DNA from: Acidobacteriota bacterium
Lineage (GTDB): Bacteria > Acidobacteriota > Terriglobia > Versatilivoradales > Versatilivoraceae
Direction of reading: 5' to 3'
Assembly (NCBI GenBank): GCA_022826755.1
Contig: JAJDUG010000079.1
Location: 1-64,000 of the forward strand
Length of the DNA: 64,000 nt
A program made the position numbers and the translations under genes. The stretch's first letter is position 1. Each line of letters opens with the position of its first letter. Shown here in pieces: positions 49,930 to 61,087 of this stretch. The notes under the pieces were generated by a model. It saw only the letters and a program-made list of their open reading frames with translations. It searched no databases and was not told the origin of the DNA.

Positions 49930-50178
49930 GTTAACCCGCATTTCTCACCAGGGGGCATGATCATGGCGCAGGATTTTTCCCTCCAGCGCGTGCTCGTGAC
50001 CGAAGAGCGTAGCGGTTTCTACGGTCGAGGGAGCATGTGCGCGCTGGAGGGAAAAAGACAAGTCAGGGCATGCCCAGCACAGTCTGCTTTTTTGCAATCC
50101 CCCCAAAGGACCCATAACGTATTGAAAATACACAGTCTCTAACAATGCAGGTGCGTCCTGGTGAGAAATCGGGTTGAC
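49930..50178. mobile_element. MITE-like element, 249 bp, with terminal inverted repeats
   Basis: The left end 49930-49952 reads GTTAACCCGCATTTCTCACC and then AGG. The right end 50157-50178 is its reverse complement except for one mismatch and one missing base, an imperfect inverted repeat of about 22 bp. Inside, near the left end, a 17-bp perfect inverted repeat (49974-49990 with 50040-50056) plus 5 further pairs forms a long hairpin. There is no transposase frame. I could not find a target duplication, so the exact outer ends are uncertain. It inserts between convergent operons, the usual place for such elements. Confidence 0.6.
49974..50056. repeat. Long hairpin inside the MITE-like element
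   Basis: Arms TTTTTCCCTCCAGCGCG and CGCGCTGGAGGGAAAAA are perfectly complementary. The stem continues with TGCTC/GAGCA across a 4-base bulge. The apical part (around 49996-50030) can fold again through GACC...GGTC and CGTAG...CTACG. If transcribed, it would be a stable structured RNA. Confidence 0.65.
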
Positions 50179-50276
50179 TGCAAGCCCTCCACCAGCAGAC
50201 CTCCGCGGGAGCAGCCGTGCGAAGCGGCGGCAGGTTCAACAGGGGAATCGCTTCTCGGAAGAAAGGGAAGGACTTC

Positions 50277-52574
50277 CTACTCCGTGCGGGATCTCGGCCT
50301 GCGAAGCAGTCGCAGGCCGTTGAAGATCACGACGAGGGTTGCGCCCATATCGGCGGCGACTGCCAGCCACAATGTCGCCAGGTTCTGGGCCGCCAATCCC
50401 AGGAAAAGCAACTTGAAGCCCAGGGCAATGGCGACGTTCTGGCGGATCACGCGCAGGCACAGGCGCCCGGTCCGGATGAGATCCGGCAACAGCTCGAGAC
50501 GGGGAGACATCAGCACGACCTGAGCCGACTCCAGGGCGATGTCCGCCCCGCCGCCTCCCACGCCGACGCCGAGCGAGGCGGCGACGAGCGCTTCGGCGTC
50601 GTTGACGCCGTCGCCGACCATGGCGGTACGCCCGCACCTCTTTTCGAGTTCTTCGATGGCGGCGCGCTTGTCTTCCGGCAGGAGGGGGCCTTGGGCCTCG
50701 TCAATCCCCACCTCCTCGCGGACGGCTTCGACCGCGGAGTGATGATCACCGCTCAAAATGGCGGTATGGGTGACTCCGAGTTGGCGCAGCTCCGCGACCA
50801 CGCGGCGTGCCTCCGGGCGGACCGGATCGCGAAGCCGCACAAGAGCCCAGGGCGTCTCACCTTCTCCGCAGATCACGATGGTGCCGGCTTGCGACGCCAG
50901 CAAGGCGTGCGCTTCCGGACCCAAGTCCGCGCCGGCGTGATCGAGCATGCGCGAGTTGCCGGCCCAGAAGCGGGCCGCGCCGATGAGAGCCGAGGCGCCG
51001 ATGCCGCGCTCGATGCGGAACTGCTCGACCTGATGCGGCAAGATGCCCCGTTCGGCGGCATGGGCGACGATCGCACGAGCGAGCGGGTGTTCGCTGTATT
51101 GCTCGAGCGCTGCCAGTCGAGCCAGGATTCCGGAGAGGTCTCGCCCCTGCAGCGGTACGATCTCCTCGACCTCCGGCACGCCGGCCGTCAGCACGCCGGT
51201 CTTGTCGAAGGCGATGGTGCGAACGCGAGCCGCTTCTTCGAGGAAAGCTCCGCCTTTGACCAGCAACCCGCGCCGGGCGGCTTTGGCGACAGCCGCTGCG
51301 ATCGCCACCGGAGTCGAGATGACCAGGGCGCAGGGGCAGGAAATGAGAAGTGTCAACATGCCGCGGTAGAACCACGGCGAAAACGGCGCGCCGGCCAACA
51401 ACGGCGGGCCCGCTGCGATGCCCGCCGCCAACAGAAACATCGCCGGGGTGTAGTAGCGGGCAAAGCGGTCGACGAATCTCTCCGATGGAGCCCGTCGATG
51501 CCGACTCTCCTCGAGCATGCGCAGAACGCGGGCGAGACGGGTGTCGTCCGCGACTCTGGTGGTGCGGATATCGAGCACCCCGTCACTGTTGAAGGTCCCG
51601 GCGTAGACAGGGTCTCCGGGGCGCTTCATGGTCGGCACCGGCTCGCCCGTGAGCATCGATTCGTTCACCCCGGATATTCCGACTTCGACCTCTCCATCGC
51701 ACGGCACATGCTCGCCCGGTCGAACGCGCACCAGGGACCCCACCGCCACAGAAGCGGCCGGGACCCGATGCTCGTGGTCGCCATGAACGACTGACGCCTG
51801 TTGTGGAGCGACCGCCATCAAGCCGCCGACCTCGCGCCGGGCACGGGCCATGCTCCAGCCCTCCAACCGGCCGGCCAATGAGAACAGGAAGGCCAGAGTC
51901 GCCGCCTCCGCCCATTCGTTCAGCCACGCCGCGCCAATGAGGGAGACCACAACCAGAGCGTTCATGTCCGGACGAAGGGCGGCCAGGGACCTGATTCCCT
52001 TGGGGACGACGAGGGCGACGCCGCTGGCGATGGCGACCAGGAAACAGACCAGCGCAGCCGGCGTTTCGCCCACGTGCCGATGGGTGATCGCCGCCATCCA
52101 TTCCCCTGAGCCGGCGGCATGCACAACAAAGCCGAGTGCGAGGGCCAGGCCGCTGACGCCGGCCAGCAGATCCTGTCCCCGGCGCTCGAAGAACGCGCTC
52201 TCCCGAGCCGGCTCTTCCCACGGCTGGCATTCCAGCCCGAGCGCCGAGACCTGCGCGGCGATGTCCCTGGCGGTCAAGGCCCGCGGGTCGAAGGCCGCGG
52301 TCAGCTTTCCCCTGATGACATCGAAGCGGAGTTCCTCGATGCCCGGCTCCCCGTCGAGCCGTCTGCGGATGGCGCCGACCTCTTCGGCGCAATCCAGGCC
52401 GTAGACCCGGTACTCGGCGGTTTCCCTATGTTCGGATTTGGCGGTTGGCAAGAGCGTTGGAGTGCCTGGTGTCCTGTTAACGGTGTCTGGCCTGGGGGCG
52501 ATCTCCAGGGTTTCTCTCGCGACCGATCCGTCTGCATCGATGAACGGGACACATCTCCGGATGGGTGGGAGCAA
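50277..52574 (-). CDS. P1B-type heavy-metal ATPase (Zn/Cd class), 765 aa
   Basis: The N-terminal HMA-like domain has one Cys in VYGLDCAEEVGAIRRRLDG instead of the usual CxxC. The transmembrane metal motif is SCPCALVISTP, the CPC-type sequence found in Zn/Cd/Pb exporters. The phosphorylated Asp457 lies in DKTGVLT (usually DKTGTLT), and the HP motif is SEHPLARAI. GDGVNDAEAL replaces the usual GDGxNDxPAL. The domains are complete and the length is normal. It is the last gene of the metal operon and would export excess metal or load a periplasmic target. The start is uncertain: TTG 52574 is the longest; the HMA domain begins about 52 codons in. Confidence 0.9.
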   Translation of the reverse strand: MLPPIRRCVPFIDADGSVARETLEIAPRPDTVNRTPGTPTLLPTAKSEHRETAEYRVYGLDCAEEVGAIRRRLDGEPGIEELRFDVIRGKLTAAFDPRALTARDIAAQVSALGLECQPWEEPARESAFFERRGQDLLAGVSGLALALGFVVHAAGSGEWMAAITHRHVGETPAALVCFLVAIASGVALVVPKGIRSLAALRPDMNALVVVSLIGAAWLNEWAEAATLAFLFSLAGRLEGWSMARARREVGGLMAVAPQQASVVHGDHEHRVPAASVAVGSLVRVRPGEHVPCDGEVEVGISGVNESMLTGEPVPTMKRPGDPVYAGTFNSDGVLDIRTTRVADDTRLARVLRMLEESRHRRAPSERFVDRFARYYTPAMFLLAAGIAAGPPLLAGAPFSPWFYRGMLTLLISCPCALVISTPVAIAAAVAKAARRGLLVKGGAFLEEAARVRTIAFDKTGVLTAGVPEVEEIVPLQGRDLSGILARLAALEQYSEHPLARAIVAHAAERGILPHQVEQFRIERGIGASALIGAARFWAGNSRMLDHAGADLGPEAHALLASQAGTIVICGEGETPWALVRLRDPVRPEARRVVAELRQLGVTHTAILSGDHHSAVEAVREEVGIDEAQGPLLPEDKRAAIEELEKRCGRTAMVGDGVNDAEALVAASLGVGVGGGGADIALESAQVVLMSPRLELLPDLIRTGRLCLRVIRQNVAIALGFKLLFLGLAAQNLATLWLAVAADMGATLVVIFNGLRLLRRPRSRTE

Positions 52575-52618
52575 GGTGTTGCGGAGCGCCGCTCTCAGGC
52601 TCTCATTTCATTGATCGT

Positions 52619-53197
52619 TCATCGTGAGAATTCGCGGAGATGCGGCCACGGCGCGGATTCGATCTGCTCCGCCAGGGCGCGCCAAGCTTCGGGCAGCCTC
52701 TCCGGAGCCGTCTGGGTGGTCTCCCGCCATCGCGCCAATACGGCTCGCCGATATGACAAGCCGCATCGAGAGAGCGCCCAATCCTCGTAGTCGGCAATTC
52801 TACGGACAGCGGTGGCGGCCAGCTTCAAAATGACGGACGGGTCGGGGGGAGGCCCGCCCGAAGGAATCATGTCCGGCTTCCAGATCGGCCCCCCGACCGC
52901 ATCGAGACCCATCCACTGCGGCCGGAATTGGAAGCGGTTCACATAGATTCCTCCAAGGTCCGGCGTCCCGTAAAAAAAACCGAACCCCCAAAGCATCCAG
53001 CGTCCGGCGCCCACGAGCCGCAACACGTATTGAGTTGATCCCGCGACCCCTTGTGGAGGACGCTGCCTGGTGAAACCCGCCTCCAAGAGCAGGTTGCCTT
53101 CCGGACGCAGGATGTCCTGGCCCCAGATCCAGCACTGCTGGTGGAGGAGTTCCTGCCCCTTGCGTCGATCGGCGCCGGATATCGGGCTCACAGCCAT
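52619..53197 (-). CDS. Unassigned protein of the metal operon, 192 aa
   Basis: ATG 53197 overlaps the end of the FeoB-like gene by 10 bases, a sign of coupled translation. The sequence (MAVSPISGADRRKGQELLHQ, GRWMLWGFGFFYGTPDLGGI, WKPDMIPSGGPPPDPSVILK, RLPEAWRALAEQIESAPWPH) has no transmembrane segment, signal peptide or catalytic motif that I recognise, and only two Cys (QQCWIWG and SRCGLS). It is rich in Trp in the first half and helical in the second. The position inside the operon suggests a cytosolic accessory or regulator of the FeoB-like transporter. Function unknown. Confidence 0.75.
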   Translation of the reverse strand: MAVSPISGADRRKGQELLHQQCWIWGQDILRPEGNLLLEAGFTRQRPPQGVAGSTQYVLRLVGAGRWMLWGFGFFYGTPDLGGIYVNRFQFRPQWMGLDAVGGPIWKPDMIPSGGPPPDPSVILKLAATAVRRIADYEDWALSRCGLSYRRAVLARWRETTQTAPERLPEAWRALAEQIESAPWPHLREFSR

Positions 53198-54816
53198 GCT
53201 CCGCCCCAAGCCAGCAAGGCGCTGAACACGGTGGCCGCTGCAGCCTGGCGCCCCACCAGCCGCAGCGCGAACGCGCGGCTCTGCTCGCGCGCAATCGTCA
53301 AGCAGGTGACCAGGCAAGGCAGCAGCACGCTGGCCAGGTAGACGGCCGTCAACAGTTGGACGCCGCTCAGGCCTGCAGCGAGGCCCGGCTCCGCCAGCAG
53401 CAAAATGCCGTCCTTGCGCACGCTCGCCAGGATTACCGCCAGGGCCGCCTCCGCTGGCAATCGAAAGACGGCCATCGCCGGCTCGATGACGGTCGACACG
53501 GCTCGCAGCGCGCCCAGCCAATGCAACAGAGAAGCCGCGGCCGTGATCAGAAAGAAGACCGGCAAGGCCCTGCGAAAGAACTCCCGAACGACGCCCAGCG
53601 CCTCAAGCCAGACGGCCCTGGGGCGCGGCCAGGTCAGGAAGACCCGGCCCTCGGTCAACAGAACATTGAAGGGAGACCGAGCCGCTTGCGGAGCGATGAG
53701 GCGGGAGTAGGCGAGTGTCGTGGCGCCAAGGTACACCAGGTAGGGCACGACCAAGCCGGGTCGCCCCGCCACGGCGAAGACCGCCAGCGTGGCTCCCAAC
53801 TGATACGAACAGGCCGATCCGAAAGCAATGGCCGAGACGCATACGCCACGCGAGCAGGCCGACGACGAGCGCGCGCTGATGACGGCGGGTACGTTGCAGC
53901 CGAATCCCATCACGACCCGCGCCAACTCCCGGCCCGTCATGCCGAACGGCCGCAGCCACGGATTCATTGCGGCTGTCAGGCGATCGAGCAGGCCGCTCGC
54001 CTTGTAGGCGCCCATCAGCAGCGCATGGAGCACGACCACCGGAGTCGCCCACACCAGCAGCAGCGGCCCCATCGTGACAAAGCCGTAGTCGCCAGCCAGG
54101 ATCTCCGCAAGCGGCTGCGGCCAACTCTCCAGCAACCCGACCAGCGGCTCGGTCCGGGCGCGGACCCAGGGGTCGATGCGACTCGCGAGACGGTTGGCGG
54201 CGTCCACCGCGACCCAGGTGGGCGCCAACAACAGCAGCAGCCCCCAGAAAGGACCAAGGGCGGAGCGATCCAGGAAGAGAGGGCGCGGACGGGCGATCAG
54301 ATCGACGAAGCTCAAACCGGCTTCGGCGGGAATCGGGCCGGGCGCTTCCAGCGCCTGCATCAGCCCTTGACGATCGTTGGCATCCAGTCGTCGAGCGTCC
54401 ACGACGACCACCGGCAACCCCGTCTGGAGGGCCAGCTCTCCCAGCCGCGCCTCCACTTCCGGCCGGGCGAGTCGATCCCGATGGGTCACGACCAGCGCAC
54501 CGAGTCGACCCGCTGCGAGCGGCAGCAGGTCGGCCAAGTCTGCGTCCAGATCGGTTCCCTGGGCGACCAGCAGGACAGTATCATCGCCACGCAGCCGCTC
54601 CAGAGCCAGTCGGGTGGTCTCAACATCGGAGCTTCGCAACAGCCCGGGTGTGTCGATCAGTTCCCAGCCGTTCACCCGGTAGGAGTCGCAACTGAGGTTG
54701 GCGCCTCGGAAGTTCGAGGCAGCACTGGACGCACCCGCCAGCGATGCGGCCAGTTGCGTCTTGCCGACGTTTCCCTTGCCCAACAGAACCACGGTTCGAA
54801 CTGACGTTTGGAGCAT
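53188..54816 (-). CDS. FeoB-like GTPase-permease, shortened, 542 aa
   Basis: The N-terminal small G domain has G1 GKGNVGKT (13-20) and G3 DTPG (55-58). G4 is THRD instead of NKxD. There is almost no spacer before the membrane part. The permease keeps the two FeoB gate motifs: GFGCNVPAVISAR (first Cys-containing gate) and SVRKDGILLLAEPG (compare ALRKDGALL). It has about eight or more hydrophobic segments. FeoB of enterobacteria is 770 aa; this protein lacks much of the spacer and the C-terminal cytosolic end, and no feoA is present. FeoB imports Fe(II). The surrounding zinc-type genes suggest that this divergent form may carry another divalent metal. Confidence 0.87.
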   Translation of the reverse strand: MLQTSVRTVVLLGKGNVGKTQLAASLAGASSAASNFRGANLSCDSYRVNGWELIDTPGLLRSSDVETTRLALERLRGDDTVLLVAQGTDLDADLADLLPLAAGRLGALVVTHRDRLARPEVEARLGELALQTGLPVVVVDARRLDANDRQGLMQALEAPGPIPAEAGLSFVDLIARPRPLFLDRSALGPFWGLLLLLAPTWVAVDAANRLASRIDPWVRARTEPLVGLLESWPQPLAEILAGDYGFVTMGPLLLVWATPVVVLHALLMGAYKASGLLDRLTAAMNPWLRPFGMTGRELARVVMGFGCNVPAVISARSSSACSRGVCVSAIAFGSACSYQLGATLAVFAVAGRPGLVVPYLVYLGATTLAYSRLIAPQAARSPFNVLLTEGRVFLTWPRPRAVWLEALGVVREFFRRALPVFFLITAAASLLHWLGALRAVSTVIEPAMAVFRLPAEAALAVILASVRKDGILLLAEPGLAAGLSGVQLLTAVYLASVLLPCLVTCLTIAREQSRAFALRLVGRQAAAATVFSALLAWGGAWL

Positions 54817-54828
54817 TTCACGGCTCCT

Positions 54829-55956
54829 TCAACAAGCGCATTCATCCCCGCAGCACGATAGATCGTCGAGGTACATTCCGTAGTGGCGGTACTCCTCGAG
54901 CGGCTCCGTGCTGACCCGCATGCGGCGGGCGATCTGGTTGGCCACCACGGCGAAGCGCTGGCGGAACTTGTAGACGAAACAAAAGATGATATCGCCTTGG
55001 CGCACCTGCGGCCCGACCAGGAACAGCCCTTTCGTCACGGTGGACTCGTCGTTTTCCGTCAGCAGCGGAAACTCGTCACCCTGCCATTCGAACAACGAGC
55101 GAACGAGGCTTGCCGAACCGACGAATCCGGAGGCCAGGATCGGCTTCTCGGCGCAGTGGACTACGTTGCCGTTATCGAGCGCCAACTGATAGCCGTTGTC
55201 CGTGGGTCGGACGCCGATAACCGCACGGCCGCCGCGCAACTTCACCCGACCCGAGCCGATAACCGCATTGAGACGCTCCTTCGTAAAGGGCGACAACAGT
55301 TGGCTGGGGTCCGAGCCCTTTCGCTCCCACGGTTCCTCGCGGTCGAAGACGACGGCTCGTCGACCGCTGGCGGCCAGCCCGACAGCGGCGTCGATGCCGC
55401 TCTCGGAGCCGCCGATGATGCATCTCTCCTCGCCGCTGAGATCGCCCCACGAGGTCACCTTGGAGTAGTGCAGGCAATGCTCGGCGCCGCGGAAGCCGCG
55501 GGTTCGCGGGTACTGCATTTCGCCGCCCGCCCAGACCACGAACCGCGCGCGGATGTCGCCGCGACTCGTCTCCACCCGAAACTCCTTGGGTCGACCTCTC
55601 GCAGAGACCGAGAGAACGTCGACCCCGGTCTGTACGGGCAAGTCGAAATACTTCGCAACCCCTCGCAGATAGCCGGCGTACTCCGCTCCCGTGGGGTGCT
55701 CGACGCCGACCGAGAAAGCCGGCGAGGTGTGCAGACAGACGGCGTTCAGGTCCAAGGTGCCGAACTGGTTGCTGTTGAACGACGGCGTGATGAAGCGCGT
55801 TTGCCGCGGCCAGCGCAGGAATGAGGCGCCGACCGCGGTGCGGTCGAGGATTACGAAGTTCTCGATTCCGAGGTCGCGCAGCGTCACGCCCATGCCGAGA
55901 CCGGCGGCCCCGGCGCCCACGATGACAATGTCGATTGATCGAATTCGTTTGGCCAT
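54829..55956 (-). CDS. CzcO-like FAD/NAD(P)-dependent oxidoreductase with Cys-rich tail, 375 aa
   Basis: An N-terminal FAD Rossmann motif VIVGAGAAGLGMG (11-23) and a second dinucleotide motif IIGGSESGIDAAVGL (near 190) mark a flavin monooxygenase/thioredoxin-reductase-like fold. WRPRQTRF-type WPRQTRFITPSFNSNQFG is a block typical of flavoproteins found with cation transporters (CzcO/TrkA-associated group). The C-terminus DDLSCCGDECAC holds four Cys in nine residues and may bind a metal or act as a redox site. It sits 5 bases after the TonB receptor and 12 before the FeoB-like gene. It might reduce the metal or its ligand before transport. Confidence 0.85.
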   Translation of the reverse strand: MAKRIRSIDIVIVGAGAAGLGMGVTLRDLGIENFVILDRTAVGASFLRWPRQTRFITPSFNSNQFGTLDLNAVCLHTSPAFSVGVEHPTGAEYAGYLRGVAKYFDLPVQTGVDVLSVSARGRPKEFRVETSRGDIRARFVVWAGGEMQYPRTRGFRGAEHCLHYSKVTSWGDLSGEERCIIGGSESGIDAAVGLAASGRRAVVFDREEPWERKGSDPSQLLSPFTKERLNAVIGSGRVKLRGGRAVIGVRPTDNGYQLALDNGNVVHCAEKPILASGFVGSASLVRSLFEWQGDEFPLLTENDESTVTKGLFLVGPQVRQGDIIFCFVYKFRQRFAVVANQIARRMRVSTEPLEEYRHYGMYLDDLSCCGDECAC

Positions 55957-55961
55957 GGTTG

Positions 55962-58439
55962 CTAGAAGAAACGCACGATGTAGCTGAATCGGACGCCGCG
56001 CCCCATCTCGGGGGCGAGATCCTTGATGAATGACGAATGGTTCCGGTAAAGCCGGTCCCCGACGTTGAAGACGTCGACCGAAAACTGCTGAATCGCTCCC
56101 GGTGTCGGAATCGTGTACGACGCCCTCAGGTTGAACACGGCGTATCCGGCCGTCGGCGTCTCAAGGTCGAAGGTTTGGCTCTGTCGACTGGCCAGCACAA
56201 GTTCGGGCCTCAAGCTGAACCCCTTGTGTCGGTATCCCAGGCCGACCAGGCCTCGCAAGGGAGGGATGCGCGGCAGCGGAGTGCCGGTCTCGGTATCCTG
56301 CGCGTCCACCACGTCCAGGCCGAGATTGAGCCGGAAGTCCGGACGGAGACCGATGCCAAGCCTCGCCTCCGCTCCGGTGAACCGGCTGTCTCGCTGGACG
56401 AAGTTGACGACGGGCAGGCCGCTCTCTTCCTCGCCCGTTGCGTAGGGGAAGACGAAGTTGCTGAAGTCGTAGTAGAAGAGATTGACTTCGCCGTCGATTC
56501 GTCCCGCTTGTTGACGCAGGGACAGATCGATTCCGTTGCCGCGCTCGGCCGTCAGACCGGGATCGCCCACCTCGTAGATCAATGTGCCCACGTGCGGTCC
56601 CAGGTTGTAGAGTTCCTCGAGTGCCGGAACTCGGTACGAGTGGGAATAGTTGGCGACGAAGGCCCCGCCCTGCCACAAGTCCACGTGCATGCCGGCCGCC
56701 GCGGAGGCGCCTGTGAAGCGGCGTCGAACCGCGTCGGGAATTTCCTCCTCGTGGTGTTCGTCCTCGTGGTGTTCATCCTCCTGATGTTCCTCCTCCTGAT
56801 GTTCGTCCTCGTGCCCAGCCTCGTCCTCATGACCGCGCGCTCGCTCGGCGAATGCAGGATTGTAGCGAGAGGTCTCCAAGCGGCCGCCGAACTGCAGTTT
56901 AACACGTTCGAAAGTCAGTTCTTCCAGGGCAAACAGTGCGAACGACTGCTGATCGACAGGCGGCGCGAGCGCTTCCTCACCCGAGGCGGAGTAATCACGC
57001 TCCAGGCCCGAGAATCCGAAACGACCCGTAAGCGGCCCCCGACGGTTCTGTTCGAATACGCCCCGATAGACGAATTGATCGTTGTCGAAACGGGTTCCGA
57101 TACGGCGTTGGCTGCCTTCGAATTCGATCTCTTCGTGCTGGTAGGTTGCATAGTTCAACTTCATCACGAAGCTGTCAAGCGCCGATCCGAGGTTTCGTAG
57201 CCCCCAGTTGACCTGGTAGGCCTGTTGGCGCATCTCGAGATCGATGCGCAGTTCCTCGTCCTCGTGGTCGCCTTCCTCTTCATGATCGTCGTGGAGTTCT
57301 TCGCCTTCCTCCTCATGGTGGTCGTGCTCATCCTCGCCTTCCTCCTCGTCGTGGCCGTGCTCATCCTCGCCTTCCTCGTCATGGTCGTCGTCGTGATGAT
57401 GATGGCCGTGAAAATCCCCGGCGAAAGGATTTCCATAGGCGCCGTAGTTGGTGCGAACGCCGAAGCTGACGAAAGCGCGGTCGCCAAACCAGCCAAAGCC
57501 GCCATAGCCGTTCGCCGAGCGGGTCCGCGAGTTTTCGATCGGTCCCGCGGGCGTGTCATAGTCCCCGGTTCGGAGGCCGTTGGCACCGCCCCAGAACCGC
57601 CACCCACCCTGAGCGTAGTCCAAGCCGGCCGCTCCTCCGCCCAACGCGTTGGTCGTGCCCGCCGAGCCCTGCAGGTAGCCCTGCAGACCGTCCGGATGGG
57701 AGCTGAAGCCCGCGTGGCTGCTGATGGCGTTGATGACTCCGCCCATGGCATTGCTGCCGTAGAGAAGCGTCGCGGGACCCTTGACCACTTCGACTCTTTC
57801 GAACGCGAGCGGATTGAATGTCTCGGCATGGTCGCCGGAGTTGGAAGAGATGGAGCCGGTGGGCAGATCGTCGGTCATGATCGCCACCCGATCACCGTCG
57901 AAGCCGCGGACCAGAGGTCGTGACGAACCGGGTCCGAATCCGCGCCAGGCGATCCCCGTGCCCGGCTGATTGCCGATCGCTTCGCCGAGGCCGGCGGCGA
58001 TGGCCTCCGCGCGAGCCAGATCGAGCAAGGTCAGCGAATGGGTGGCTTGGAAGGTTTCGAAGGCGGACTCGGGCCTCCCGGTTGCACTCACCGTGATCTC
58101 CGTTCTCTGGGTTGGGAACGAAAGCACCAGTTGCAACCGCGCCGTTTCTCCGCCCGCGGCCACGACGACGTGGGAAACGTCCTGCAACGCGCTACCGATA
58201 CGGGCATGCAGATGGTAGCGGCCCGGCTGCACACCCTCGAACTGGAACTCACCCTGTCGGTCGGTGATCGCCAACGCCCCGGTCTCCAGGAGAATGACGG
58301 TCGCCCCCGCGATAGGCTCTCCGCTCTCTTGGAGTAGAACCTGGCCCTCGATGGAGGCCGGCTCCTCACCGTGGACCACGCACACGGTCAACAGCGCCGC
58401 TACAACGGCGCACACCGCTCTTTTCATCGCACTCTTCAA
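55962..58439 (-). CDS. TonB-dependent receptor with His/Asp/Glu-rich insertions (ZnuD-like), 825 aa
   Basis: A signal peptide and an N-terminal carboxypeptidase-regulatory domain (SIEGQVLLQESGEPIAGATV) are followed by a plug with RGFGPGSSRPLVRGFDGDRV and VEVVKGPATLLYGSNAMGGV, then the barrel, ending in an aromatic strand (FSYIVRFF). Two long insertions, at about residues 340-400 and 530-568, consist almost wholly of His, Asp and Glu (for example FHGHHHHDDDHDEEG and EDEHHEDEHHEEE). In the zinc receptor ZnuD of Neisseria, His/acid-rich external loops capture zinc. This is the probable outer membrane entry of the operon. Start: TTG 58439 has AAGGGG 7 bases upstream; ATG 58427 begins a good signal peptide and is the alternative. 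Confidence 0.93.
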   Translation of the reverse strand: MKSAMKRAVCAVVAALLTVCVVHGEEPASIEGQVLLQESGEPIAGATVILLETGALAITDRQGEFQFEGVQPGRYHLHARIGSALQDVSHVVVAAGGETARLQLVLSFPTQRTEITVSATGRPESAFETFQATHSLTLLDLARAEAIAAGLGEAIGNQPGTGIAWRGFGPGSSRPLVRGFDGDRVAIMTDDLPTGSISSNSGDHAETFNPLAFERVEVVKGPATLLYGSNAMGGVINAISSHAGFSSHPDGLQGYLQGSAGTTNALGGGAAGLDYAQGGWRFWGGANGLRTGDYDTPAGPIENSRTRSANGYGGFGWFGDRAFVSFGVRTNYGAYGNPFAGDFHGHHHHDDDHDEEGEDEHGHDEEEGEDEHDHHEEEGEELHDDHEEEGDHEDEELRIDLEMRQQAYQVNWGLRNLGSALDSFVMKLNYATYQHEEIEFEGSQRRIGTRFDNDQFVYRGVFEQNRRGPLTGRFGFSGLERDYSASGEEALAPPVDQQSFALFALEELTFERVKLQFGGRLETSRYNPAFAERARGHEDEAGHEDEHQEEEHQEDEHHEDEHHEEEIPDAVRRRFTGASAAAGMHVDLWQGGAFVANYSHSYRVPALEELYNLGPHVGTLIYEVGDPGLTAERGNGIDLSLRQQAGRIDGEVNLFYYDFSNFVFPYATGEEESGLPVVNFVQRDSRFTGAEARLGIGLRPDFRLNLGLDVVDAQDTETGTPLPRIPPLRGLVGLGYRHKGFSLRPELVLASRQSQTFDLETPTAGYAVFNLRASYTIPTPGAIQQFSVDVFNVGDRLYRNHSSFIKDLAPEMGRGVRFSYIVRFF

Positions 58440-58522
58440 CGCAATTCCCCTTTCACTCGCTCACAATGCTGTTGGCGGCGCACGCTATTGCGCGGCCGCT
58501 GGATAAGGAACGTGGACGAGAA

Positions 58523-58795
58523 TCAGAGAGGAGGTGCGCGTCCCTGGCTGAGCCGCAAGACCGAGACCAGGGGAGCAAGGTGAGGAAGGGTGTCTGTGGA
58601 GTGGAAGGTTGGAGTTGGGGAGAACAGCCGAGGGGGGCTGCAAACGATCAGCGCGAAACGACTCAGGTGGCAAAGTTCACAGCAAGCCTCGTCCGATTCC
58701 TCCGTTTCAAAGGCGCAGTGAATCTCGGCATAGGTAATCTGCCACAGCCCCAGCGCCAGCAGTGGTACCAGCAGCAGCAGTAGCGGTCGGCGCAT
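58523..58795 (-). CDS. Small Cys-rich secreted or membrane-anchored protein, 90 aa
   Basis: MRRPLLLLLVPLLALGLWQI is a signal peptide or anchor. It is followed by a short domain IHCAFETEESDEACCELCHL with five Cys, including CCELC, and one more Cys in LIVCSPP. The tail is Pro/Ser/His containing (TFHSTDTLPHLAP). Its ATG overlaps the MerC stop by one base, so it is co-translated. A periplasmic metal-binding or redox helper is plausible. It does not match a family I can name; small DUF2946-like periplasmic proteins look similar. Confidence 0.7.
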   Translation of the reverse strand: MRRPLLLLLVPLLALGLWQITYAEIHCAFETEESDEACCELCHLSRFALIVCSPPRLFSPTPTFHSTDTLPHLAPLVSVLRLSQGRAPPL

Positions 58796-59253
58796 CACGC
58801 GAACGGCTCCTCGGCTTGACATCGCGCGCACTGCCGGCAGAGACGGAGGTTGACGAGGTGAGCAGTGGCGAGCAGTGCAGCGCCGGAGGCGACAGTCCAA
58901 GGCTCCCATCGCTCCCCGACCGGCCCGAGCTTGGCCAGAGCAAGCAAACCCGCCCCAACGGCAAACATGGCGAGGCAGCGTTTGCGCCGGTGGCGCCGCC
59001 AGTAGCTGGGTCCAAGGCTCAAGGCTCCCGTCAGGACCGCGGCGGCGAGCAGCAGGGCCTCCGTGGACTCGTCCAAGAGCCAGCCGATGGGCAGACTGGC
59101 CGCAACTCCGATCAGCAGCGGAGTGAAGATGCAGTGCAATCCGCAGGAGAGAGACAAGGCCATGCCGGCGCGATCGATGGTCGCGCCAATTCCATCATTC
59201 CGATCCCTCACCTGCACCTGTCCTGGCAGCACCACTCCTCCGAAATTCCGCAC
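58795..59253 (-). CDS. MerC-domain inner membrane protein, 152 aa
   Basis: Four transmembrane helices (roughly 30-52, 57-77, 88-105 and 118-132). Helix 1 carries the MerC motif DRAGMALSLSCGLHCIFTPL with the Cys-x-x-x-Cys pair (CGLHC). The C-terminus holds CRQCARC. MerC proteins transport Hg(II) in mercury operons, and relatives elsewhere probably move other soft metals. There is no merA, merP or merR here, so a mercury role is unlikely. GTG 59253 is the start used; the first helix begins 26 residues on, so a later start is possible. First gene of the operon. Confidence 0.82.
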   Translation of the reverse strand: MRNFGGVVLPGQVQVRDRNDGIGATIDRAGMALSLSCGLHCIFTPLLIGVAASLPIGWLLDESTEALLLAAAVLTGALSLGPSYWRRHRRKRCLAMFAVGAGLLALAKLGPVGERWEPWTVASGAALLATAHLVNLRLCRQCARCQAEEPFA

Positions 59254-59377
59254 GAAGACAGCAAGAAGGCTATCTTAACCGCAGGGAAGGTGCAAACCGA
59301 AGGAGAATCGACAAGCGGCGGAGTGCCATGGACAAGCGGGTGTGAAGTGCGCGCCGACGGCGCTCCGTCATCGCTCG
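59254..59377. other. Gap between the acyl-CoA synthetase and the metal operon
   Basis: This 124-base stretch must contain the promoter for the seven-gene metal operon, read on the minus strand. I see no clear Zur-type palindrome (GATATGTTATNNTATAACAT-like half-sites) and no good -35/-10 pair, so its control is open. Confidence 0.35.
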
Positions 59378-61087
59378 CTAAGGCGTATCCGAGATCTCTT
59401 CCAACCCCAGTTCCCGGATCGCGATTTCCCGGATCCTGTATTTCTGGATTTTTCCCGTGACGGTCATGGGGTAGCTGTCCACGAACTTGAAGTACCGCGG
59501 AATCTTGAACCTGGCGATCTTGCCCCGGCAGAAGTCCTTGATGTCCCGGGCAGTAACCATTCCCGGTTCTTTCAACTGAATCCAGGCCAGGACCTCTTCA
59601 CCCAGCTTGGCATCGGGAACCCCCACCACCTGAACGTCGCTCACCGCCGGATGGGTGTAGAGAAACTCCTCGATCTCACGGGGATAGACGTTCTCGCCTC
59701 CACGGATGATCATGTCCTTCACTCTTCCGGTAATCCTGCAGTAGTCCTCTTCGTCCAGGGTCGCCAGATCCCCGGTGTGCAGCCAACCTTCCGGGTCGAT
59801 CGCTTGCCGGGTTGCCTTCGGATTCCTGTAATAGCCGCTCATCACCAGGTAGCCGCGCGTGCACAGCTCTCCGGGAGTTCCCCGGGGCGCTAATTCGCCT
59901 GAATCGGGATCGACGATCTTGACTTCGGTGTGGGGCAAGGGCCGGCCCACCGTGGTGACACGGGTCCGGAGCGGGTCGCTCACCCCGGTCTGGGTGATGA
60001 CCGGGGAACTCTCGGTCAACCCATAGGCAATGGTCATCTCCCGGCAGTGCATTTTCTCGACCACCTGTTTCATTACTTCGATGGGACAGGGGGAGCCGGC
60101 CATGATTCCGGTCCTCAAAGACGTCAGGTCGACCCGGGAGAACTGGGGGTGCTCCAGCTCGCGAATGAACATGGTCGGCACCCCGTAGACAGCAGTGCAT
60201 GCCTCATCCTCGACCGCCTTCAGCGTGGACCAGGGGTCGAAGGCCTCGGAGGGAATGACCATGGCTGCTCCGTGGACGGCGCAGGCCATGTTTCCCAACA
60301 CCATGCCGAAGCAGTGGTAGAAGGGCACCGGAATGCAGACACGGTCCCGGCAGGTGAGCTCCATCCGCTGACCCACCAGGTAGGCATTGTTGACGATGTT
60401 GTGGTGGGTGAGCACGGCCCCCTTGGGATAACCCGTGGTTCCTGAGGTGTACTGAATGTTTATCGGGTCATGGTTGCTCAAGGAGACGCCCGTTTCGCCC
60501 TCCGTCTCCCCCGCACCGGCAGCCTGCCCGCCGGAAACCAGCTCATCCCACCTGCCCATGCCGGCCAGGGGCTGCCCCTCTCCGGCCAGAACCAGGTTTC
60601 TCAGGTGAGGGAGGCCCTCCGACCGCCATTCTTTCGGCCCCGCGGCGGCTTCGGGACAGATTTCGGCAATCATCTCCAGGTAGTTCGCCGACCTGAAGCC
60701 GCCAATGGTGATGAGCGTCTGAGTCTCCGACTGATCCAGGGCGTAGTGAAGCTCACGCGACCCGTAACCCGGGTTGATGTTGACCATGATGGCGCCGATC
60801 CGCGCCGTGGCGAATTGGGTCAGCACCCATTGGGAGCGGTTGGTCGACCAGATCGCCACCCGGTGTCCCTTCCCCACTCCCATGGCCGCCAGCCCACGGG
60901 CGACCCGGTCCACCTCTTGGAGGAACTCTCCCCAGCGCAAGCGGACGCCCTCGGCAACCACGACCAGGGCTTCCCGCTCGGGAAACATGGCTGCCGTCCG
61001 CTCCAGAACGGCTCCAATGGTCGAATCGAGCAAGGGAGCGTCCCCGGGTCCGCGAGCGTAGCTCCGACTCTGTTGGCTGGTGTTCAT
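59378..61087 (-). CDS. AMP-forming acyl-CoA synthetase, 569 aa
   Basis: ANL-family adenylating enzyme. The P-loop is YTSGTTGYPKGAVLTH (about 190-205). AYGLTESSP is the A4/A5 core. WLHTGDLATLDEEDYCRITG (A7/A8) and RVKDMIIRGGENVYPREIEE follow. The catalytic Lys is in VTGKIQKYRIRE near the end. It activates a carboxylic acid, probably a medium or long-chain fatty acid, to its CoA thioester. ATG 61087 was chosen because GGAGG lies about 6 bases upstream. It stands alone in this window, so the substrate is open. Confidence 0.92.
   Translation of the reverse strand: MNTSQQSRSYARGPGDAPLLDSTIGAVLERTAAMFPEREALVVVAEGVRLRWGEFLQEVDRVARGLAAMGVGKGHRVAIWSTNRSQWVLTQFATARIGAIMVNINPGYGSRELHYALDQSETQTLITIGGFRSANYLEMIAEICPEAAAGPKEWRSEGLPHLRNLVLAGEGQPLAGMGRWDELVSGGQAAGAGETEGETGVSLSNHDPINIQYTSGTTGYPKGAVLTHHNIVNNAYLVGQRMELTCRDRVCIPVPFYHCFGMVLGNMACAVHGAAMVIPSEAFDPWSTLKAVEDEACTAVYGVPTMFIRELEHPQFSRVDLTSLRTGIMAGSPCPIEVMKQVVEKMHCREMTIAYGLTESSPVITQTGVSDPLRTRVTTVGRPLPHTEVKIVDPDSGELAPRGTPGELCTRGYLVMSGYYRNPKATRQAIDPEGWLHTGDLATLDEEDYCRITGRVKDMIIRGGENVYPREIEEFLYTHPAVSDVQVVGVPDAKLGEEVLAWIQLKEPGMVTARDIKDFCRGKIARFKIPRYFKFVDSYPMTVTGKIQKYRIREIAIRELGLEEISDTP

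Follow-up and report, generated by a model that had tools for sequence, protein, structure and literature searches.

Seven genes on the minus strand of a contig from an Acidobacteriota bacterium (JAJDUG010000079.1 of assembly GCA_022826755.1), read at positions 50277–59253 of the 64,000-nucleotide stretch analyzed here (hereafter, the window), probably form an operon for uptake under zinc starvation, with a core pair that is controlled by Zur wherever a Zur box is readable. The conserved unit (hereafter, the module) consists of the gene for a CzcO-like NAD(P)/flavin adenine dinucleotide (FAD) protein (54829..55956, minus strand) followed by the gene for a shortened FeoB-like GTPase-permease (53188..54816, minus strand); the genes for a P1B-type ATPase, a TonB-dependent receptor, and a MerC-like protein are lineage-specific additions to this pair, and a 192-aa protein, p192, is an accessory and not part of the core. 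An earlier note on this DNA had proposed that all seven genes form a single acquisition and homeostasis system for zinc or a similar metal. Its account of genes, strands, overlaps, and gaps agrees with the window sequence (spacings, in order: a 1-nt overlap, 83, 5, and 12 nt, a 10-nt overlap, and 44 nt), and the zinc role, with zinc as the presumed cargo, is supported by the zinc-regulon neighbors and Zur boxes found in other lineages.

Scanning 84,980 genomes with a profile yielded at least 579 relatives of the FeoB-like permease, from which 80 loci were kept using two conserved peptides, a selection that misses divergent members. Two of these (L134 and L135) are ordinary FeoB matches at 24–26% identity, leaving 78 true family loci. 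Neighboring open reading frames (ORFs) were identified mechanically and grouped into clusters with no labels assigned beforehand, and 20 canonical FeoB loci, a small control drawn from the window's phylum alone, were analyzed with the same profiles. In 73 of the 78 true loci, from both Bacteria and Archaea, a CzcO-like gene lies within 10 kb; in 68 it precedes the permease gene on the same strand, and in 50 the two are no more than 150 bp apart. CzcO-like genes were present in 73/80 module loci versus 0/20 canonical FeoB loci (Fisher 1.7e-15), and genes for COG0523 GTPases (ZigA/YciC-type) in 49/80 versus 0/20 (Fisher 1.4e-7). No gene fusion joining CzcO, the FeoB-like protein, p192, or COG0523 was detected among the stop-to-stop ORFs of these loci.

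The remaining neighbors among the 80 loci include ZnuA/B (15 loci), HisI (14), cysteinyl-tRNA synthetase (CysRS, 10), gamma-carbonic anhydrase (9), ribosomal protein S14 (9), and threonyl-tRNA synthetase (ThrRS, 6), along with DksA and FolE2, and several of these zinc-sparing genes, although each rarer than COG0523, are nearly missing from the control loci. COG0523, HisI, CysRS, ThrRS, gamma-carbonic anhydrase, S14, DksA, and FolE2 also make up the Zur-regulated set of zinc-related paralogues described by Haas et al. 2009 (PMC2770081), the main text of which does not feature FeoB; the flavoprotein, the permease, and p192 are additional, undescribed members of such clusters. The pLVPK Klebsiella cluster in that paper resembles the kind found on Klebsiella plasmids here. 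The S14 copies near the module retain one cysteine in Bacilli and two in haloarchaea, and the Klebsiella-type DksA copies retain one, losses of zinc cysteines that fit zinc-independent paralogues. In two haloarchaeal modules (L045:7751-7936 and L046:7766-7951), the flavoprotein and permease genes flank a short S14 paralogue that retains half of the usual zinc cysteines.

In a search of plasmids, the FeoB-like gene adjoins the flavoprotein gene in Klebsiella, haloarchaea, and Acaryochloris, with FolE2, DksA, carbonic anhydrase, CysRS, HisI, S14, COG0523, and Fur-type regulators as neighbors, and Staphylococcus plasmids agree with this zinc-gene neighborhood. The plasmid annotation labels the Klebsiella and Staphylococcus copies no more precisely than 'nucleoside recognition domain protein' or 'ferrous iron transporter B'. 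From haloarchaea to Bacilli, the pair follows the zinc-starvation regulon, also on plasmids under generic annotations, and it appears to be an overlooked zinc-response module. On plasmids of S. epidermidis (L163) and S. arlettae (L164), the permease gene is shorter (annotated at 385–460 codons) and in L163 is followed by a gene for a GTP-binding protein; the staphylococcal permease may be split or truncated.

Promoters were searched with the Zur motifs of Bacillus (B. subtilis), enterobacteria (E. coli), and cyanobacteria, within 300 bp upstream of czcO, allowing up to two mismatches and comparing the results with shuffled sequences. In Bacilli, the Zur type TCGTAATNATTACGA was found in 9 of 15 loci (0.3% in shuffles), compared with none of 15 for the Fur type and one of 15 for the PerR type; in gammaproteobacteria, the Zur type TGTTATANTATAACA was found in 5 of 6 loci (0.8% in shuffles). 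No such site was recognized upstream of position 59253 in the window. The Bacilli promoters, with sites of the Zur and not the Fur type, run counter to the iron-only permease under Fur control that the earlier note had named as the contrary case.

The same promoters bear on another explanation, in which a miscellaneous metal cassette is attached to an ordinary iron-uptake operon of FeoB; the weak similarity of the permease to FeoB models speaks for it. In the window copy, the Gate (PF07670), MMR_HSR1, and FeoB_N domains were recognized, and the match to TIGR00437 reaches 86 bits against a cut-off of 315.65; a Pfam scan of the protein found no FeoB_C, FeoB_Cyto, or FeoA, FeoA genes in other loci not having been searched for. 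In a tree of 75 family and 22 canonical FeoB sequences, canonical FeoB forms one clade with a support of 1.0 that leaves out all family members except L134 and L135. The family and FeoB (TIGR00437, PF02421/PF07670) share the N-terminal GTPase, two Gate domains, the GxGC motif, and C307, C336, and C501, with both gate motifs and the three pore cysteines fully conserved. The G-domain motifs GxxxxGK[ST] and DxxG are likewise retained (G13, G18, K19, and G58 in 75/75 family members and D55 in 74/75). Family members differ from FeoB in their length of about 540 aa, the missing C-terminal and FeoA domains, the near-constant flavoprotein partner, and the zinc regulon context, as well as in motifs: the G4 motif is T-x-x-D instead of N-x-x-D (T in 71/75 family members versus N in 22/22 canonical FeoB), GCNV replaces GCDT, ACSYQ replaces PCSAQ, RKDG replaces RRD, and a CxxC[TSA]R motif is added between the two gate motifs (63/73 versus 0/22). 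With CzcO and COG0523 neighbors found in none of the 20 real FeoB loci, the iron operon is largely refuted and was rejected on tree, motifs, and promoters; we regard it as very improbable.

The main rival to zinc uptake accepts that zinc starvation induces the pair but takes the imported cargo to be a substitute metal, Fe(II), Co(II), or Mn(II), destined for paralogues that spare zinc, such as FolE2 and gamma-carbonic anhydrase; the flavoprotein would keep this metal reduced. A redox-active metal would suit a flavin enzyme better than zinc; the permease is a FeoB superfamily member that retains the three pore cysteines; FolE2, gamma-carbonic anhydrase, and HisI are among the neighbors; and Cupriavidus metallidurans takes up cobalt under zinc starvation (PMC11340326). 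Against this stand the zinc ABC uptake and COG0523 genes next to the permease or its flavoprotein in Staphylococcus, Paracoccus, and others, the ZnuD-like receptor of the window operon, the added cysteine motif that FeoB does not have, and the two other FeoB loci of the window genome, which serve iron. On balance, import of a substitute metal seems unlikely, although it deserves serious consideration.

The flavoprotein (Pyr_redox_3, 311 bits) ends in CCGDECAC and matches over its full length the S. aureus protein 3d1c (E 9e-74), which ends in CCEVSCTC; 3d1c, a structural-genomics protein in PDB without an assigned role, is a full-length member of the same family and gains a zinc context here. 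Across 78 homologues, the C-terminal CC-x-C-x-C is conserved (C369 in 94%, C373 and C375 in 96%), as is C326 (99%). The FAD fold with two dinucleotide-binding domains is shared with YpdA/Bdr, ArsO, and CzcO-type flavoproteins, but scores are 68 bits against the YpdA cut-off of 340 and 49 bits against the ArsO cut-off of 425, and the conserved cysteine tail with C326 sets the family apart from all three types. MerA also carries a C-terminal CC pair, and together with the MerC family match and the P1B ATPase, this likeness could suggest detoxification of mercury or another soft metal by MerC, a MerA-like flavoprotein, and the exporter. Neither the CxxxxC redox pair of a MerA-type FAD domain nor a thioredoxin reductase redox pair was found in the flavoprotein translation, where the only cysteines of the N-terminal half are C74, C161, and C179; no MerR, MerT, MerP, or MerB neighbor was recognized, and elsewhere the neighborhood is that of zinc starvation. 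Mercury detoxification, disfavored and hardly credible, was rejected for the missing MerA redox pair and the wrong neighbors.

The cysteine tail and C326 also lend themselves to an explanation without transport, in which the FeoB-like protein is a membrane GTPase sensor or metallochaperone dock that remobilizes zinc, together with the flavoprotein, from oxidized or low-priority thiol sites. The close partnership with COG0523 chaperone GTPases and the occurrence of the flavoprotein without the permease would fit such a role, but the complete conservation of both gate motifs and the three FeoB pore cysteines argues for retained permeation, and we consider the sensor or dock improbable.

In the favored zinc-uptake reading, the ZnuD-like receptor would draw Zn(II) across the outer membrane and the FeoB-like GTPase-permease would pass it across the inner membrane. 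Because zinc is not redox-active, thiols are a more plausible target of the flavoprotein than the ion itself: using NAD(P)H, FAD, and its CC-x-C-x-C tail, the flavoprotein may keep the cysteine sites of the permease reduced or accept the incoming ion from them. Zinc would then be handed to ZigA-type chaperones or client proteins, perhaps with p192 as an accessory at the handover in the window lineage, and the P1B ATPase may act as a safety outlet for zinc overflow. Bacterial zinc import is usually described in terms of ABC and ZIP systems. A more far-reaching proposal, which we put forward tentatively and hold to be somewhat short of an even chance, is that this FeoB-derived family is a dedicated zinc importer in which cysteine motifs on both proteins couple the gate to an NAD(P)H flavoprotein. 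Such importers would constitute a GTP-driven, redox-linked class of uptake systems in Bacteria and Archaea that is unlike ABC (ZnuABC) or ZIP transporters, and p192 would be their third component, with a new fold.

Several observations weigh against zinc uptake under Zur control. FeoB itself transports Fe(II), which makes iron or another metal a possible cargo in place of the predicted zinc. In the window copy of the permease, C321 and C326 are retained, but S318 stands where the added CxxC has its first cysteine. In cyanobacteria, TGATAATNATTATCA occurs in 12 of 15 loci (0.3% in shuffles), but the same letters also fit a Fur box. No enrichment of Fur-family genes is seen around the module (17/80 versus 6/20 in controls), and the flavoprotein occurs without the permease in Paracoccus and on Acaryochloris pREC1, sometimes with Zur-type, COG0523, and zinc ABC genes. 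In the window, a palindrome scan of upstream regions recognized no Zur box ahead of position 59253, the motif of this lineage not being established, and the single Fur-family protein of the genome combines a Fur domain with a rubrerythrin/ferritin-like domain; Zur control of this particular operon is at most presumed.

ZnuA (PF01297) is absent from the whole window genome, which is rated 100% complete. Among module carriers, G172, G196, G335, and the more distant G272 also lack it, but G468 and G475 have it; across the phylum, ZnuA is found in 2 of 7 module carriers versus 180 of 389 non-carriers. The occurrence of ZnuA in some carriers and, elsewhere, beside the module indicates that the module complements ZnuABC in general, whereas in the window genome it may stand in for it. 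The replacement of ZnuABC envisaged earlier is hence tenable for this genome but was rejected as a general rule, given the co-occurrence of ZnuA in carriers and of ZnuA/B in module loci. The CobW homologue of the window genome (contig C54) is a weaker, non-ZigA-like match (87 bits) beside a cysteine-desulfurase-like gene. The unusual Fur-rubrerythrin fusion (L136:1000-2451, contig C54 near 20458) matches PF01475 at 102 bits and PF02915 at 49 bits in two stretches; directly downstream of its gene and convergent with it, in the same genome, is a gene for a TonB-dependent receptor (L141:13457-15937).

The window operon begins with the gene for the MerC-like small inner-membrane protein (58795..59253, minus strand; PF03203, 81 bits versus a cut-off of 27.6), followed by that for a 90-aa cysteine-rich protein (58523..58795, minus strand) with a predicted signal or transmembrane (TM) segment and a CCELCH motif but no Pfam or NCBIfam match. 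The TonB-dependent outer-membrane receptor (55962..58439, minus strand) is ZnuD-like, with loops rich in His, Asp, and Glu; its best NCBIfam model is ZnuD NF038289 (191 bits, below the cut-off of 950) and its closest solved relative is ZnuD 4rdr (E 3e-30), from which it differs by an N-terminal carboxypeptidase-regulatory-like domain. The last gene encodes a ZntA-like P1B-type ATPase (50277..52574, minus strand), a probable Zn/Cd exporter that exceeds the cut-offs of TIGR01512/TIGR01525 but scores 447 bits against ZntA NF033775, under its cut-off of 1240. Its translation shares the motifs of ZntA-type P1B-2 ATPases (SCPCALVISTP, that is, CPC-x4-S-x-P, in TM6, GFK with the lysine in TM7, and DMG, that is, DxG, in TM8) and an N-terminal HMA-like GLDCAEE, but the gene differs from those of that type in its location in an uptake operon. 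The start is uncertain: the TTG at 52574 is about 40 residues ahead of the stretch conserved with L056, so that the real gap between the p192 and P1B genes may be about 160 nt. In scans of 50000–59500, no promoter was found and terminators were fewer than expected by chance.

The order of the MerC, 90-aa, receptor, CzcO-like, and FeoB-like genes is kept in the same-genus locus L014 at 89–94% identity, as far as that contig reaches (it ends inside feoB), and two further lineages, L012 (another family) and L056 (Bryobacterales), have the operon as well, so the seven-gene arrangement is not due to chance. L056 encodes all seven proteins; there, p192 is followed by a ZigA-like gene, and a divergent ArsR-type gene precedes the P1B ATPase. 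L012 lacks the ATPase; after the pair it carries p192, then a COG0523 gene of the ZigA-like kind, and another MerC-like gene. The two ZigA-like genes, both directly after p192, score 568 and 558 bits, just below the cut-off of 600. The MerC-like protein is 89% identical in the same genus and 78% in L056, the 90-aa protein, conserved at the same place, 91% (L014), 40% (L012), and 37% (L056), the receptor 72–91% across these three loci, and the ATPase 82% in L056. The linkage to the receptor is kept in L014, L012, and L056, but no receptor was detected near the pair in L049, L050, and L052. Genes for MerC-like proteins are present in 6 of the 80 module loci, and the one checked, in Opitutales, is PF03203.

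The p192 gene (52619..53197, minus strand) represents a new conserved family without a Pfam or NCBIfam counterpart, for which the module likewise provides a zinc context. An alignment of 13 sequences shows an invariant GxD...NLL...YExW...R pattern. The predicted model (pLDDT 92.8, pTM 0.88) had no match at E<=0.001 in the PDB and viral fold libraries searched, and p192 may therefore adopt a new fold. The linkage of the CzcO-like, FeoB-like, and p192 genes does extend to distant genomes: p192 is found in 16 of the 80 module loci, including Nitrosopumilus and Verrucomicrobia, often no more than about 50 bp from the FeoB-like gene, and in the phylum sample in 5 of 7 module carriers versus 3 of 389 other genomes. 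Such counts, the restriction of the receptor and the ATPase to few lineages, and the ArsR-type neighbor of the ATPase in L056 do not fit seven genes acting as one system and leave the flavoprotein and permease as the core. In two of the three non-carriers, p192 abuts a COG0523 gene or sits beside a Fur-family gene, which points to its own link to metal-response genes. These homologues without a FeoB-like gene are L173:8376-10159, next to COG0523, and L171:2909-5211, where the neighbors are a Fur-family gene and one for an ArsP-type permease.

The novelty claimed for the gene combination is supported as far as the open-licence literature shows: within the reach of our search terms, the pair is not described there. 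Under these terms, it goes unmentioned in zinc papers on S. aureus ZigA, Paracoccus, B. anthracis, and Klebsiella, and no FeoB-type importer is named in two Zur reviews (PMC6103462, PMC8000910). A second FAD/NAD(P) protein, lysine/ornithine-monooxygenase-like, recurs near the module (L101 15300-16562; cluster c7, 11 loci), mostly in haloarchaea and cyanobacteria.

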